IMG/VR virus record: IMGVR_UViG_3300037488_001035
Span: 1-23,891 of that record
Origin: a virus
Direction: 5' to 3' (one strand)
DNA length: 23,891 nt
The notes below the pieces were generated by a model that did not search any database, was not told where the DNA came from, and saw only the letters and a list, made by a program, of their open reading frames with translations. The translations under genes and the position numbers were made by a program. Of this stretch, positions 163 to 21,185 are shown piece by piece; within the stretch, counting starts at the first letter, position 1; each line of letters starts with the position of its first letter.

Positions 163-183
163 ATCTAACTCCTTGTACGTTAG

Positions 184-259
184 CCTTGATTGGTTTGTGC
201 CAGCAGGCGATCAAGGTTTCGCTTTTCAAGACGGATTATAAGTTCGTCTCTAGCTGACA
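184..259 (-). ncRNA. Structured 5' leader RNA, copy A (pseudoknotted, unclassified)
   Basis: Minus-strand RNA directly after promoter 265-293. P1 pairs TGTCAGC (253-259) with GCTGGCA (198-204). Inside P1 come TA, a 6-bp hairpin (GAGACG/CGTCTT), GAAAA, then P2 GCG/CGC (220-222 with 207-209). The P2 loop AAACCTTGAT holds CCTTGAT (210-216), which can pair with ATCAAGG (184-190) downstream, making a 7-bp pseudoknot. The ribosome binding site of the zinc-motif gene follows about ten bases later. The same architecture occurs at 18477-18544 with different helix sequences, which is the main evidence. No named RNA family is assigned. Confidence 0.65.
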
Positions 260-264
260 CTATT

Positions 265-293
265 ATTGTATCATAAATACCTCACAAAGTCAA
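265..293 (-). promoter_or_regulatory. Sigma70-type promoter for leader A and the broken zinc-motif gene
   Basis: On the minus strand the -35 box is TTGACT (288-293) and the -10 box is TACAAT (265-270), with a 17-base spacer. Transcription should begin near 259, exactly where the first strand of leader A's P1 helix starts. The promoter sits just past the end of the tail chaperone extension, so the downstream gene can be expressed apart from the structural operon. Confidence 0.75.
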
Positions 294-16540: not shown

Positions 16541-16578
16541 TATTAATGCACATAACGTGCTTTTGAATATTCAGTTTT

Positions 16579-16767
16579 TGGTGGAGCTAACTGGAATCGA
16601 ACCAGTATTATGCACCCATGCTACCCCAGAAGGGTGGAATCTCACGTTTGGTGTTGAGGGGAGCAAAGAACCAACGCAAGACTCCGTGCGTGGTAGTTTT
16701 TGCTTGACTGCCAACAAGGGAATTTCAAGGCATATTCTCAACCTTTTTTGGAGAAAAAAATATCTTC
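16579..16767 (-). ncRNA. Stand-alone RNA with tRNA-like T-arm, acceptor strand and encoded CCA end
   Basis: The 3' end reads as a perfect tRNA 3' domain: T stem ACTGG/CCAGT (602-606, 590-594), T loop TTCGATT (595-601), acceptor strand TAGCTCC (583-589), discriminator A and CCA (579-581). No matching tRNA 5' half exists upstream: there is no D-arm, no seven-base anticodon loop with U33, and no 5' strand GGAGCTA. Instead, about 130 bases with other helices precede it: GTTGAG/CTCAAC (737-742, 653-658), GCTCCCC/GGGGTAGC (658-664, 620-627) and GTG/CAC. GGGGTAGC can pair instead, partly by wobble, with the acceptor strand. A consensus promoter and a strong terminator flank it. It is not a tmRNA as far as I can see. 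The 5' end is inferred from the promoter, and 3' processing at CCA is assumed. Confidence 0.65.
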
Positions 16768-16808: not shown

Positions 16809-17387
16809 TTAAAATAAGTAGAATTGACCTGTTTTTTTGTCTGATGGCTGATCGGGTTGTTGACTTTCTATATTATTTTTATCCAATTCGTTCTGCATTG
16901 ACATTCTAATTTCATTCAACAATATATTGATTGGAATAGCAATATTGGAAGTTTTCCATGTGCTGTTATATGCAAACTTTCTGCCGTATTCCTTTAACCA
17001 GCAATGGTAGTTTTTAATCCAAACCTTTTGTAGCAATAAAAAAGGCAATAAATACAATAATTTAGCAGGCAATACAATATAGGCAATATAGTCAGTATAT
17101 TTCTCTTTACCTAGCCAACCAACAACTTTACGATCATAATCAGAGTATTCCTCTAACAATATATCTCCATACCATTTTCGTCTAATTTTCTCATCAACAA
17201 GAATGCGTTTTCCGCTATCAGTAATAAATATCTTGTCTATACCTTGCTTTTGTAGTTTTAGATCAGTAACTTTCTGTATATCCGATATATGCGGAAATAA
17301 CCGTTTATATACTAAATCAATAAATTGCTCGTTACTGGTGTCTAAAGAAAACTCTAAATCATCTTGAAAGTCATTTTTGATTCCCAT
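16809..17387 (-). CDS. PD-(D/E)XK-like nuclease, partner of the adenine methyltransferase
   Basis: A protein of 192 residues, ATG at 17387, overlapping the end of the methyltransferase gene by 17 bases. Residues 49-67 (GIDKIF, then KRILVDEKIR) fit the PD-(D/E)XK pattern, with Asp51 and an Asp65-Glu66-Lys67 triad on the next strand, followed by basic residues and a Trp/Tyr-rich part. A hydrophobic stretch near 105-120 (LPAKLLYLLPFLLLQ) is too short and interrupted to be a sure membrane segment. Coupling with a DNA methyltransferase suggests a restriction partner or a nuclease guided by methylation. Size is small for a type II enzyme but acceptable. The family call rests on the short motif only. 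Confidence 0.55.
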   Translation of the reverse strand: MGIKNDFQDDLEFSLDTSNEQFIDLVYKRLFPHISDIQKVTDLKLQKQGIDKIFITDSGKRILVDEKIRRKWYGDILLEEYSDYDRKVVGWLGKEKYTDYIAYIVLPAKLLYLLPFLLLQKVWIKNYHCWLKEYGRKFAYNSTWKTSNIAIPINILLNEIRMSMQNELDKNNIESQQPDQPSDKKTGQFYLF

Positions 17388-18456
17388 AGCTAAACCATCC
17401 TAATCGTTCATTTCTTGAAAACAGTTCTATATATTTTTTGTTTGGAAACATTGATTCAATCATACTATAATAATATTCTGGTTTCTTACTATGTTGTCCT
17501 CTTTTTTCATGAAATACCGATGAAAAACGATTTTCTACATCAGGGCACTTAGGATTACCTTTAACGCCTAGTAGCAATATTTCGTGCTGTTGTCGCCACC
17601 AGTACCCAAGACCGATTATTTCTTTATCCCATACTGAACAGGTACGGTATGTAAAACCCCACGCATTTAATACCAGCAGGGCTTCCTCTAGTTTTGGTGA
17701 GGTAGCCCATAATAATAGCACGCAATCTTTATCAGCAGGTATATCTAATGATTTAATTTCACCGAGATCCATGGTTGGATATTGGTTTTCTATTTCCCTG
17801 CTTGGTGATTCTGCAAACTCATATCTCCAGGGGGGATCGGCATAGATAACATCGAATAAACCATCAGGTATTGTTGGTTGAAAAGTTTGATCTTTAATCT
17901 CTTGTTGCTTTTCTTCACGTTGAATATCTTTATATGCCTTGTTGATCGTCAATTCACCATCACGTATTTTCTGGATTATCTCTGGTGAAGATTCTTTATC
18001 TATCTTCTCTATCTTGTCTAATGTCCTACCAGACATGCCTGCTTCTTCTGCTAACTGCTCTCTTGTATTAACTTTCTGTTCTGGTAATATTGCCAAAACA
18101 GATTCAGGCTTTCTTATCTGATTCTCTTTAGCTTTTAATGCAATTATATCTTTTTTCCTTAAAGATAATATGCCACTATCGTAAAGAGATAGATTCCGTC
18201 TGCCTCTTTGGTTATCAATTATCCATATTTCAGCATCGGCTCTGGAATCAAATTCTATCTCTCTGGTATCAAACTCAATCCCATGCTTTTGGCATAGATC
18301 ATACCTGTTGTGCCCATCAACGATAGTATCATTCCACACTTTCAGCGCATCTAAACACCCATGCGATAACAGGCTTTGCTCTAATGAATTATATTCTTCT
18401 GTCGTTAGTTTTGGTATCAAGTTTTGAAATTCTGTATCAATGGTAAGTTCGTTCAC
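17371..18456 (-). CDS. ParB-like / MT-A70 adenine methyltransferase fusion
   Basis: I start this at GTG 18456, since GGAGGT (464-469) stands seven bases upstream. An ATG at 18531 would lie inside the structured leader and has no ribosome site. The 361 residues hold a ParB/Srx-like N-terminal domain (about 1-100, with DGHNRY at 47-52), a helix-turn-helix-like segment near 133-155 (REQLAEEAGMSGRTLDKIEK), and an MT-A70 methyltransferase (about 198-361) with FDVIYADPPWRYEF (DPPW 207-210), LLLWATSP and EHEILL-type and ELFSR segments. It should transfer a methyl group from SAM to adenine N6 in DNA. Phages carry such fusions for self-protection. It has its own promoter and leader, and its end overlaps the nuclease gene. 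Confidence 0.85.
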   Translation of the reverse strand: MNELTIDTEFQNLIPKLTTEEYNSLEQSLLSHGCLDALKVWNDTIVDGHNRYDLCQKHGIEFDTREIEFDSRADAEIWIIDNQRGRRNLSLYDSGILSLRKKDIIALKAKENQIRKPESVLAILPEQKVNTREQLAEEAGMSGRTLDKIEKIDKESSPEIIQKIRDGELTINKAYKDIQREEKQQEIKDQTFQPTIPDGLFDVIYADPPWRYEFAESPSREIENQYPTMDLGEIKSLDIPADKDCVLLLWATSPKLEEALLVLNAWGFTYRTCSVWDKEIIGLGYWWRQQHEILLLGVKGNPKCPDVENRFSSVFHEKRGQHSKKPEYYYSMIESMFPNKKYIELFSRNERLGWFSYGNQK

Positions 18457-18476
18457 GATATGTACCTCCGTAGTAA

Positions 18477-18544
18477 TTCCGATGTAGTAGTTGCCAGCAG
18501 AACACTCGGAATGTGTTTTTTCATGTTGCAATCACTAGCTGGCA
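18477..18544 (-). ncRNA. Structured 5' leader RNA, copy B (pseudoknotted, unclassified)
   Basis: Minus-strand RNA that should begin at the first base of P1. P1 is TGCCAGC (538-544) with GCTGGCA (492-498). Inside come TA, a short GTG/CAT hairpin, GAAAA, then P2 AACAC/GTGTT (513-517, 501-505) with loop ATTCCGA. TTCCGA of that loop (506-511) pairs with TCGGAA (477-482) downstream, making a 6-bp pseudoknot. CT separates P2 from P1, as in copy A. The methyltransferase ribosome binding site GGAGGT follows seven bases on. Conserved parts versus copy A: P1, TA...GAAAA and CT. Differing but still paired: the inner hairpin, P2 and the pseudoknot. Confidence 0.7.
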
Positions 18545-18550
18545 TAGATA

Positions 18551-18579
18551 ATTATAGCATAAAAGTCAAAGATAGTCAA
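18551..18579 (-). promoter_or_regulatory. Sigma70-type promoter for the methyltransferase-nuclease pair
   Basis: On the minus strand the -35 box is TTGACT (574-579) and the -10 box is TATAAT (551-556) with a 17-base spacer. The predicted start is near 18544, the first base of leader B. It lies in the gap after the GHKL-HNH gene, so the pair can be expressed separately from that gene and from the late operon. Confidence 0.85.
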
Positions 18580-18593
18580 TGTTTCCACATTCC

Positions 18594-21185
18594 TCACAAT
18601 CTTGCAATTTCTAATTGTTGATGGAATAGCCCATGACAGGCTTTACAAAGTACGATTACATCACTATCTAGCTCTTCTCCTAGTCGGCTATAATCATTAT
18701 GATGCACATTCAAATTGTCTTTACTTTTACATAGAGAACAAAGATGATTTGATTGTTCTATTGCTTTTATTCGTATCCGTTTCCAATGTGGAGATTGAAG
18801 ATACTGATCGTAAAATGTTCCTTCTTTTCGTAATATGGATTTCCTAACCTGTATAGCCGTAATTGAACGACCTAATTTATTGGCTATTTCCTCTTCGGGT
18901 TTATGCCTTAATGTCATTACTATTAAAGTATCTTCATCGCCACGAGTCCATTTATCATCCCAGGGTTCATTATAAAAAGGCATCCATGAACACTCCGCCG
19001 ATGTATGCTGTCTGATAAACTTATCTTCATCCTCTATATCTGATTGACCATTCTCATAGAAACGTAGCGCCCCAAAGGCACTATGAACCAGAAGCTCTCT
19101 ATAATTTTTATCCATTCTATCTAATACAGGATCGTCATTAGCATATAATCTTTTAGCATATAAATGATCCCTATTATCCATATTGACATATACAAGAATT
19201 TGTCCTTGTGATTTATCAATATAAGCGCCACTACACTTATCAAAATTATGCTTTGCAAAGTCATTTTTATGAACTGGAACAACTTTATAATCAGGAATGC
19301 CTGTTTTTCTAGGAGGTCTTATTTCATCCCCATTGCCTGATATAGTTAGTTTATATGGGATAACTTTTACAAAAAAGTTCCCTGTAAACCTATTCCATCT
19401 TTGCGTAATAATTGAATATTTATACTCAATTAAGTCATCAATTTTTATCCCTTTTGGTAAGTCTAATACGATTACGGCTATTCCGCAATCATGTATATTG
19501 CCAGTTATAAACTTCATATTTTGAGGAAGAATCGAATCGGCAGTGCATACTGTATAAAATTCACCAGGGTCGTCCTCTCTATCAAAAAAATCCGATATGG
19601 CGTCTGTTTTTAGTCTAATCTGGAATTTCCGCCCTATCTCTACCAATTTTGGATTCTCTTTAGCATATTCTGTTTCTAGTTCAAATATCTCTGGATATAC
19701 TTGTTGCGTTATTGGTTCTTTATTACTTATCCCATTATCATCTAATACATATTCTATTTTTTTTCCATTAGCCAATTCACGGAAAGCTGGAACTTTAAGA
19801 AGACATTTGTCTAAATCATATTTTTCGTCTTGGTCAACAATATGACTTGATTTATCATCACGTAATTGTTCTGCTACCTTTATCAGACCTACATGATTAG
19901 TGAGTTCATACTCTAATTGTTCACGAATGGTTTTGGTATATTCGTTATCATAAAATCGGTTTCTATCCTGCATAAATACCTTCTCCTTAATTTGTGCAGG
20001 AAGACCCGTACAATCTACAAATACCTTAATATTATTCCTCAAAATACTAAGTCCAATATCTGTAAAAACCTTTGTCTCGAGGAAATGCTTTTTCTCTGTA
20101 TGGCGTGTCTGACCTGTATCAGTAAAGAAAACAATATCATCACCAGATGGGTACTTATAGCCCAATCCATTTTTGATTACAAATAACTGGTAAGTTACTT
20201 TATAATCGTTACACTTAATAAATCCAGTATAACTACAATACAAATCCTCTTTTTTATAATTAAGATCATTTTGTAATCCATATAAAACAAGTCCATAAGA
20301 ATTAGCTTTTCTATCCTCAACATAAATAGGAAGTCCAAAATTTGGAACTAATCTGTTTATATCAGATAAAATACTACTGTTTTTAACTTGATGATCTTCT
20401 TTGTTTGAAAAGCTTCGTATTCCTACGATTAGATATGCACTGCTCCGCACTTGATAACTAAACAACTTTATAATTGTATTATATCCGGTCTCAAATTCTG
20501 CATTGGTTTCTAATTCTTGTGGGATTAAATATTCATAAGAAGACAATTTCTCATTACCTTTAGGCTCGACACGCCTTGTGATAGTAAATCCCCAGGGATT
20601 AAGAGAATGGCATAACTCAGGGGCTATTCTTGATACTATCATTTTTAGACAATATTCACCAGCAAACTTTATTGAATTAGACCCGCCTGTGTTGTAAGTG
20701 CCTGTAACATAGGGTATTGACTTTTTATTACTATCGGTTACTGACAAAAACGTATTTTCAAATCTATTACAAGGCATTCCTATGCCTTGATCTAAAATCC
20801 ACATATCAGGTCTTTCTTTTGCCCCGCTTGATCTTAATACGGTTTTTTTGGCTAATATTAATCTATCTTTCGGTTCCATAAAACGGACATTCCCATTTTC
20901 TATTCCATAGAATTCTTTCATTGCTTCGTTAAAATCTTTAGGTATAACACCTAAAATTTTGGAATCTTTCATCGAATTTGCATCACGCCCATTAATAAGT
21001 AACTCTACTAAAGCAGACTCTCCATTTGGACAATCTCTCCCTACGTGAGAACCTGAATTAGCAACCCCGCCATAAGGTTGCCACTTTTCACTATCATTAT
21101 ATAATCCACAATCCTCAAGTAACTTTTTGGCTTCAATTTCACCATTCGCATTAAATAAATTCTGCACCAATTCTGTATAATTCAT
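18594..21185 (-). CDS. GHKL ATPase fused to Myb-like segment and HNH nuclease
   Basis: An 863-residue protein starting at ATG 21185 behind AAAGGAGATC. The N-terminal part (about 40-200) has GHKL ATPase motifs: N box ELLINGRDAN (Glu61, Asn65, Asp68), G1 DQGIG (132-136) and a G2-like TGTYNTGGSNS (161-171). The middle (about 200-700) has no recognised domain. Residues about 746-786 (WTRGDEDTL ... LGRSITAIQVRKS) look like a Myb/SANT-type DNA-binding helix set. The C-terminus (about 800-863) is an HNH nuclease: CSLC (816-819), NVHHNDY (826-832) and LCKACHGLFH. An ATP-driven clamp linked to a nuclease fits DNA restriction or defence functions, as in MutL- and MORC-like proteins. It sits upstream of the methyltransferase-nuclease pair but is not overlapping it. 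Confidence 0.8.
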   Translation of the reverse strand: MNYTELVQNLFNANGEIEAKKLLEDCGLYNDSEKWQPYGGVANSGSHVGRDCPNGESALVELLINGRDANSMKDSKILGVIPKDFNEAMKEFYGIENGNVRFMEPKDRLILAKKTVLRSSGAKERPDMWILDQGIGMPCNRFENTFLSVTDSNKKSIPYVTGTYNTGGSNSIKFAGEYCLKMIVSRIAPELCHSLNPWGFTITRRVEPKGNEKLSSYEYLIPQELETNAEFETGYNTIIKLFSYQVRSSAYLIVGIRSFSNKEDHQVKNSSILSDINRLVPNFGLPIYVEDRKANSYGLVLYGLQNDLNYKKEDLYCSYTGFIKCNDYKVTYQLFVIKNGLGYKYPSGDDIVFFTDTGQTRHTEKKHFLETKVFTDIGLSILRNNIKVFVDCTGLPAQIKEKVFMQDRNRFYDNEYTKTIREQLEYELTNHVGLIKVAEQLRDDKSSHIVDQDEKYDLDKCLLKVPAFRELANGKKIEYVLDDNGISNKEPITQQVYPEIFELETEYAKENPKLVEIGRKFQIRLKTDAISDFFDREDDPGEFYTVCTADSILPQNMKFITGNIHDCGIAVIVLDLPKGIKIDDLIEYKYSIITQRWNRFTGNFFVKVIPYKLTISGNGDEIRPPRKTGIPDYKVVPVHKNDFAKHNFDKCSGAYIDKSQGQILVYVNMDNRDHLYAKRLYANDDPVLDRMDKNYRELLVHSAFGALRFYENGQSDIEDEDKFIRQHTSAECSWMPFYNEPWDDKWTRGDEDTLIVMTLRHKPEEEIANKLGRSITAIQVRKSILRKEGTFYDQYLQSPHWKRIRIKAIEQSNHLCSLCKSKDNLNVHHNDYSRLGEELDSDVIVLCKACHGLFHQQLEIARL

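Follow-up and report, generated by a model that had tools for sequence, protein, structure and literature searches.

An int-alpA RNA and a divergent relative in one viral record, each with loop-complementary sites in its own leader

The window, the whole stretch of DNA that was analysed, comprises 23,891 nucleotides of a virus (IMG/VR record IMGVR_UViG_3300037488_001035). It contains two units that each consist of a promoter, a leader with a structured RNA, and a protein gene (Table 1). An earlier note made from the sequence alone had proposed that a single promoter-plus-leader unit is present twice, ~18 kb apart. This is borne out: both copies lie on the minus strand and agree in their promoters, in a pair of short motifs and in their fold, and both rank at the top of a covariance model search. 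The promoter and leader are present as described, but the element also includes a structured RNA, and the mRNA contains target sites that match it. The gene behind copy 1 had been taken for a frameshifted, HNH-like gene. It is instead a single open frame that runs off the end of the record, and the fragment has no Pfam, PHROG or phage match and was assigned to no family, though its N-terminus is indeed rich in Cys (MSENVPLCACGCGF).

The product of the gene behind copy 2 matches Pfam MT-A70 (2.5e-24) as well as phrogs of ParB-like proteins and DNA methyltransferases, and the gene belongs to a three-gene insertion between head genes. The insertion consists of an 863-aa ORF immediately upstream of copy 2, the methyltransferase, and a 192-aa orphan, and it falls between the head-morphogenesis and the scaffold/major-head genes. 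The C-terminal part of the 863-aa ORF is HNH-like (phrog_119, 1e-8), and no function was assigned to its N-terminal part. The gap that separates the 192-aa gene from the scaffold-like gene contains what looks like a tRNA 3' end (CTGG-TTCGATT-CCAG followed by TTAGCTCCACCA); neither ARAGORN nor Rfam makes a call there.

Table 1. Positions in the window of the two units and of neighbouring features
Feature	Position	Strand	Remarks
Copy 1, whole unit	163-293	minus	promoter + leader
Copy 1 promoter	265-293	minus	-35 TTGACT 288-293, 17-nt spacer, -10 TACAAT 265-270
Copy 1 int-alpA-type RNA	197-260	minus	Rfam RF02996 and independent model R2
Copy 1 helices and joins	P1 253-260/197-204; UA 251-252; P2 228-250; GAAAA 223-227; P3 207-222; CU 205-206		
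Copy 1 P2-loop palindrome	236-241	minus	TTATAA; candidate self-kissing loop
Copy 1 P3 loop	211-218	minus	AACCTTGA
Copy 1 site A	184-190	minus	ATCAAGG; complement of P3 loop
Copy 1 SD hairpin	165-183	minus	CTAAC-GTACAAGGA-GTTAG; Shine-Dalgarno inside loop
Copy 1 site B	171-175	minus	CAAGG; in SD-hairpin loop, also complements P3 loop
Copy 1 gene	3-161	minus	ATG at 161; ORF of at least 53 aa, Cys-rich start, truncated by record end
Copy 2, whole unit	18457-18579	minus	promoter + leader
Copy 2 promoter	18551-18579	minus	-35 TTGACT 18574-18579, 17-nt spacer, -10 TATAAT 18551-18556
Copy 2 RNA	18492-18544	minus	divergent, architecture of copy 1; structural descriptor; R2 21.9 bits, E 6e-4
Copy 2 helices and joins	P1 18538-18544/18492-18498; UA 18536-18537; P2 18523-18535; GAAAA 18518-18522; P3 18501-18517; CU 18499-18500		
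Copy 2 P2-loop palindrome	18526-18531	minus	TTGCAA; unlike that of copy 1
Copy 2 P3 loop	18506-18512	minus	ATTCCGA
Copy 2 site A	18476-18482	minus	TCGGAAT; complements P3 loop over full length
Copy 2 SD hairpin	18463-18475	minus	TAC-TACGGAG-GTA; weak, 3 pairs
Copy 2 site B	18466-18470	minus	CGGAG; at Shine-Dalgarno
Copy 2 gene	17371-18456	minus	GTG start at 18456; ParB-like N-terminal part fused to MT-A70-type adenine methyltransferase
863-aa ORF	18594-21185	minus	
tRNA 3'-end-like sequence	16575-16610	minus	

Both RNAs fold into a three-way junction of the form P1-UA-P2-GAAAA-P3-CU-P1', and both end exactly 35 nt before the start codon. The motif pair CAGCUAG...CUGCUGGCA (in RNA letters) lies between promoter and gene in each, and the pattern CAGCTAG-N20..50-CTGCTGGCA has two matches in the window where none is expected (100 shuffles). 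The stem of P3 reads AACAC/GTGTT in copy 2 where copy 1 has GCGA/TCGC. The minimum free energy of the copy 1 RNA has a z of -2.67, and copy 2 folded alone is not unusually stable (z -0.55). Within the window the pair escapes both BLAST and a search for gap-free repeats, because what the copies have in common is structure and short motifs. A covariance model (R2) built from 30 relatives, with both window copies left out, places copy 1 at the top of the window (E 2e-7) and copy 2 second (6e-4), the next match having an E of 1.6; the E-values of this model and of model R1 are rough.

Copy 1 is a member of int-alpA (RF02996), an Rfam orphan family of candidate structured RNAs, scoring 37.0 bits (cut-off 35.8, E 3.2e-6) in a focused Rfam scan. 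A gathering scan of the whole window with fast filters missed it, and a scan of a short stretch was required. For copy 2, Rfam returns nothing up to E 5, which leaves it short of the 35.8-bit cut-off, and it is filed as a divergent relative of int-alpA and not as a family member.

A scan of viral contigs with CAGCTAG...CTGCTGGCA returned mainly chance matches in coding sequence, and therefore a structural descriptor with a reversed-sequence control was used afterwards. The descriptor (P1 of at least 5 pairs, TA, P2 of at least 3, GAAAA, P3 of at least 3, CT, P1') has 120 matches in the loci examined and none in the same sequences reversed, and a larger locus set yields 123 distinct elements. 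These derive from viral contigs and from bacterial genomes labelled Proteobacteria, Planctomycetota, Chloroflexota, Nitrospirae, Streptomyces and others; in a 20-locus sample, 15 matches score above the Rfam int-alpA cut-off. Throughout the ~120 relatives the layout is that of the window copies, with an RNA that begins near its own promoter and stops ~35 nt short of the start codon. The three helices covary, with 98.9% of cells paired (33–52% when partners are shifted by 1–3 columns) and double changes in 11 of 12 pairs. This is supporting evidence only, because pairing in P1, P2 and P3 was itself a selection criterion of the descriptor, so that the covariation is not fully independent. The junction UA/GAAAA/CU is nearly invariant, an invariance overstated by the inclusion of these bases in the descriptor. 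Among 299 genomes from the phylum of a Clostridia metagenome genome (G003) there is no match, under strict filters and without a positive control, and a search for the P3 stem type of copy 2 returned one contig, which fails the descriptor. Near the end of one contig (L418, 166-335, minus strand) an int-alpA-type RNA occurs twice in identical form, the two being 120 nt apart. Behind one of them come three ACAGGT repeats that complement its P3 loop and may represent a sponge or an artefact of assembly.

The promoter is a recurrent part of the element. A -10-like hexamer occurs just upstream of P1 in 36 of 86 members, compared with 4 of 86 in an equal stretch farther upstream. An ORF is found at the expected position after the element in 116 of 123 cases. 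The genes behind the leader in relatives, which the earlier note had suggested listing, are mostly nucleases, methyltransferases, phage regulators and other accessory genes, but the commonest single class is primosome/replication-like (DUF1376, 14 of the 113 cargo proteins compared with Pfam). The remainder includes AP2 (8), HNH types (6, 5, 5 and 2, overlapping), T5orf172 (3), MUG113 (3), MT-A70 (2) and pRha (2), in addition to other methyltransferases and a YhcG nuclease, and the cargo of multi-copy genomes adds YhcG, ORF6N and pRha-DUF559 proteins. The idea of a portable cassette for accessory genes is thus largely upheld by the unrelated cargo and the element's own promoter, and has to be widened to genes other than morons. 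Two phage records have the unit as a moron-like insert, which either separates lysis from packaging genes or stands among head genes. A special tie between the leader and the methyltransferase was considered and dropped; distant relatives of the methyltransferase sit in operons without the leader, which indicates that leader and cargo assort independently.

Two groups of relatives are worth describing separately. In a large viral lineage (L017, L022, L031, L058 and relatives) the element precedes DUF1376 primosome-like genes whose products start MHYYQ. The P3 stems are GAG/CTC or GCG/CGC, and the gene is of a replication type and not a moron. In a Planctomycetota genome, the proteins behind two int-alpA copies (L394, L399) are fusions of a pRha regulator with DUF559.

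Two sites in the leader downstream of the RNA complement its P3 loop. In copy 1 the loop AACCTTGA lies opposite ATCAAGG at site A, just 3' of the RNA, and ACAAGGAG at site B, which overlaps the Shine-Dalgarno sequence; in copy 2 ATTCCGA lies opposite TCGGAAT and ACGGAGG, respectively. Pairing was evaluated in the 83 dereplicated members that have a gene, with leaders permuted among members as the control. The P3 loop scores 12.30 with its own site A (permuted 7.91, z 21) and 13.11 with its own site B (permuted 9.58, z 15.5), and the arms of a hairpin that flank site B and present the Shine-Dalgarno in the loop score 11.43 (permuted 7.91, z 15.8). The same loop gives no signal with the coding sequence (z 1.1), with sequence far downstream (0.6) or with the upstream region (0.1). 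The median distance from the start of site A to the start of site B is 13 nt, and that from the RNA to the start codon is 35 nt. Two sequence features expected of c4-like antisense regulation are found in this family: complementarity of an RNA loop to the Shine-Dalgarno region farther along the leader (site B, z 15.5), and a second complementary site beside the 3' end of the RNA (site A, z 21).

The P2 loop, in contrast, shows no complementarity to the leader, the gene, the upstream region or the P3 loop, and matches itself (z 16.5). A palindrome of at least 4 nt is found in 29 of 51 distinct P2 loops (shuffled mean 11.9, maximum 23 in 3000 shuffles) and one of 6 nt in 15 of 51 (shuffled mean 1.3, maximum 7), compared with only 4 of 72 P3 loops with palindromes. 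The self-complementary apical loop expected of a self-kissing dimer is present in this majority of P2 loops. The palindromes vary (TAGCTA, TGATCA, TCATGA, TAATTA, TCGCGA and CACGTG, with TTATAA and TTGCAA in the window). Where a P2 stem carries a 6-nt palindrome, 1–2 extra nucleotides precede it on the 5' side in 34 of 36 cases, with a purine directly before it in 26; extra nucleotides and a purine on the 5' side are a known geometry of kissing loops. Approximately 43% of distinct P2 loops (e.g. GACG, GGCA, TCGCT) are without a 4-nt palindrome, so self-kissing is not essential in every member. A genome labelled Planctomycetota (G002) holds six copies of the element, and its relative G360 holds seven. 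Five of the palindromes in G002 (TGCGCA, CGTACG, GACGTC, CTCGAG, GGATCC) are all different, and three of the copies that differ in this way have a common P3 target, GACAGGAG. Because these copies differ in palindrome despite a common target, the palindrome looks like a copy-specific tag.

Judged from these sequence features, each unit is, on balance, probably a self-contained and self-recognising antisense cassette, similar to c4, that limits translation of its own gene. Transcription would start at or near the 5' base of the three-way-junction RNA (for copy 1 the predicted start is the 5' base of P1). The P3 loop would act as an anti-Shine-Dalgarno towards either of two sites, A immediately after the RNA or B in the loop of its hairpin, and the P2 palindrome of the majority of members would allow kissing with no partner other than a second molecule of that RNA. 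We infer that processing or termination releases a discrete RNA; such an RNA, ending before site A, would target other transcripts of its gene in trans: P2-P2 kissing would dock it on their leaders, and its P3 loop would mask the Shine-Dalgarno. The effect would be repressive, and translation would drop as the number of transcripts increases, making the unit self-limiting. A dimer would have two P3 loops, corresponding in number to sites A and B. Points that weigh against this reading are the share of P2 loops that have no palindrome, the short Shine-Dalgarno hairpin and unremarkable fold of copy 2, and the strongly conserved junction, which other mechanisms would fit equally. It may also be, though this is somewhat less likely than not, that int-alpA-type RNAs are widespread self-identifying riboregulators in which a palindrome homodimer offers two identical anti-Shine-Dalgarno loops to tandem mRNA sites, and in which changes of the palindrome give rise to new, mutually insulated specificities inside a single genome. 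The homodimer on tandem sites A and B may be likened to a dimeric repressor protein on two operator half-sites.

The main rival is a cis-acting switch, which we regard as rather unlikely. Here the leader would be bistable, the P3 loop choosing site A (Shine-Dalgarno free, gene on) or site B (Shine-Dalgarno covered, gene off), and a protein or ligand bound at the UA/GAAAA/CU junction would set the balance in the manner of a riboswitch. Competition of two sites for a single loop on one transcript, at the fixed spacing reflected in the medians of 13 and 35 nt, suits such a switch. The almost invariant junction would also suit it, although a protein-binding RNA would fit as well and the invariance is inflated by the descriptor as noted above. 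The switch leaves unexplained both the self-complementarity of P2 and the differences among palindromes within one genome, features that the antisense cassette would accommodate.

Two further explanations appear much less probable. The palindromes in P2 resemble 6-bp recognition sites, and methyltransferases and nucleases are among the cargo, so they might be promoter-proximal sites in the DNA at which the encoded nuclease, methyltransferase or regulator autoregulates, with the role of the RNA limited to the pairing of P3 with A and B. This is improbable given that much of the cargo does not consist of enzymes acting at specific DNA sites, and that the position of the palindrome, at the tip of P2 and with 1–2 extra nucleotides nearly always on the 5' side, is a property of an RNA loop. 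Least probable of all is that the element is simply a promoter with an RNA stabiliser or a leader for early expression, the loop complementarities being by-products. Such a leader would agree with the promoter adjoining the RNA and with the insertion of units between phage operons, but gene-specific pairing at two sites (z 15–21) with null controls would be unexpected.

An antisense cassette of this kind would offer a testable mechanism for int-alpA. In the open-access literature searched there is no mechanism for this family; the sole mention lists its occurrence in genomes, and the defining publication may have noted a pseudoknot. The cassette would explain how phages and genomic islands could hold several nuclease, methyltransferase and regulator genes, each under tight control. 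If the palindrome is an identity tag, it would represent a simple natural route to orthogonal RNA regulators. The cassette is also a sequence flag for locating accessory genes in phage genomes.

Several known RNAs resemble parts of this arrangement. Copy 1 has the P1/P2/P3 layout of int-alpA and its GAAAAGCG and CCUG motifs, whereas copy 2, like several relatives, scores below the cut-off; the dual target sites, the Shine-Dalgarno hairpin and the P2 palindrome are all absent from the Rfam model in its displayed form. In palindromic kissing-loop RNAs such as the dimerisation site of HIV-1, the apical loop contains 6 self-complementary nt, preceded on the 5' side by unpaired purines. P2, with its palindromic loop and 5' purines, resembles these by analogy only, without homology, and its dimerisation is a prediction from sequence. 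In satellite phage P4, one segment of the small immunity RNA (CI RNA) is complementary to two leader sites, as the P3 loop is to A and B. Homology with the P4 CI and N15 CA RNAs was looked for and not found: neither the descriptor nor R1 has a match in the P4 genome or in the part of N15 that was scanned.

The closest parallel is the c4 RNA of phages P1 and P7 (RF01695). Membership of that family was rejected: neither copy matches RF01695, R1 finds nothing at the P1 c4 locus, and the motifs differ. Like the RNAs described here, c4 is a leader RNA with two hairpins on a basal stem and two complementary sites downstream, the second of them near the start of the controlled gene, and it derives from the same transcript as its target (PMC5320573). 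On binding to target mRNAs, the c4 loops block part of the ribosome-binding site (PMC5320573). The two kinds of RNA differ in that c4 uses two loop sequences for two distinct target sequences, a' and b', whereas int-alpA-type RNAs use the single P3 loop for both sites, the other loop being self-complementary. In the P1 record, a2 is annotated four bases after the c4 RNA and b2 just before icd. The resulting order of RNA, a2, b2 near the start, and gene is the order seen in int-alpA-type units.
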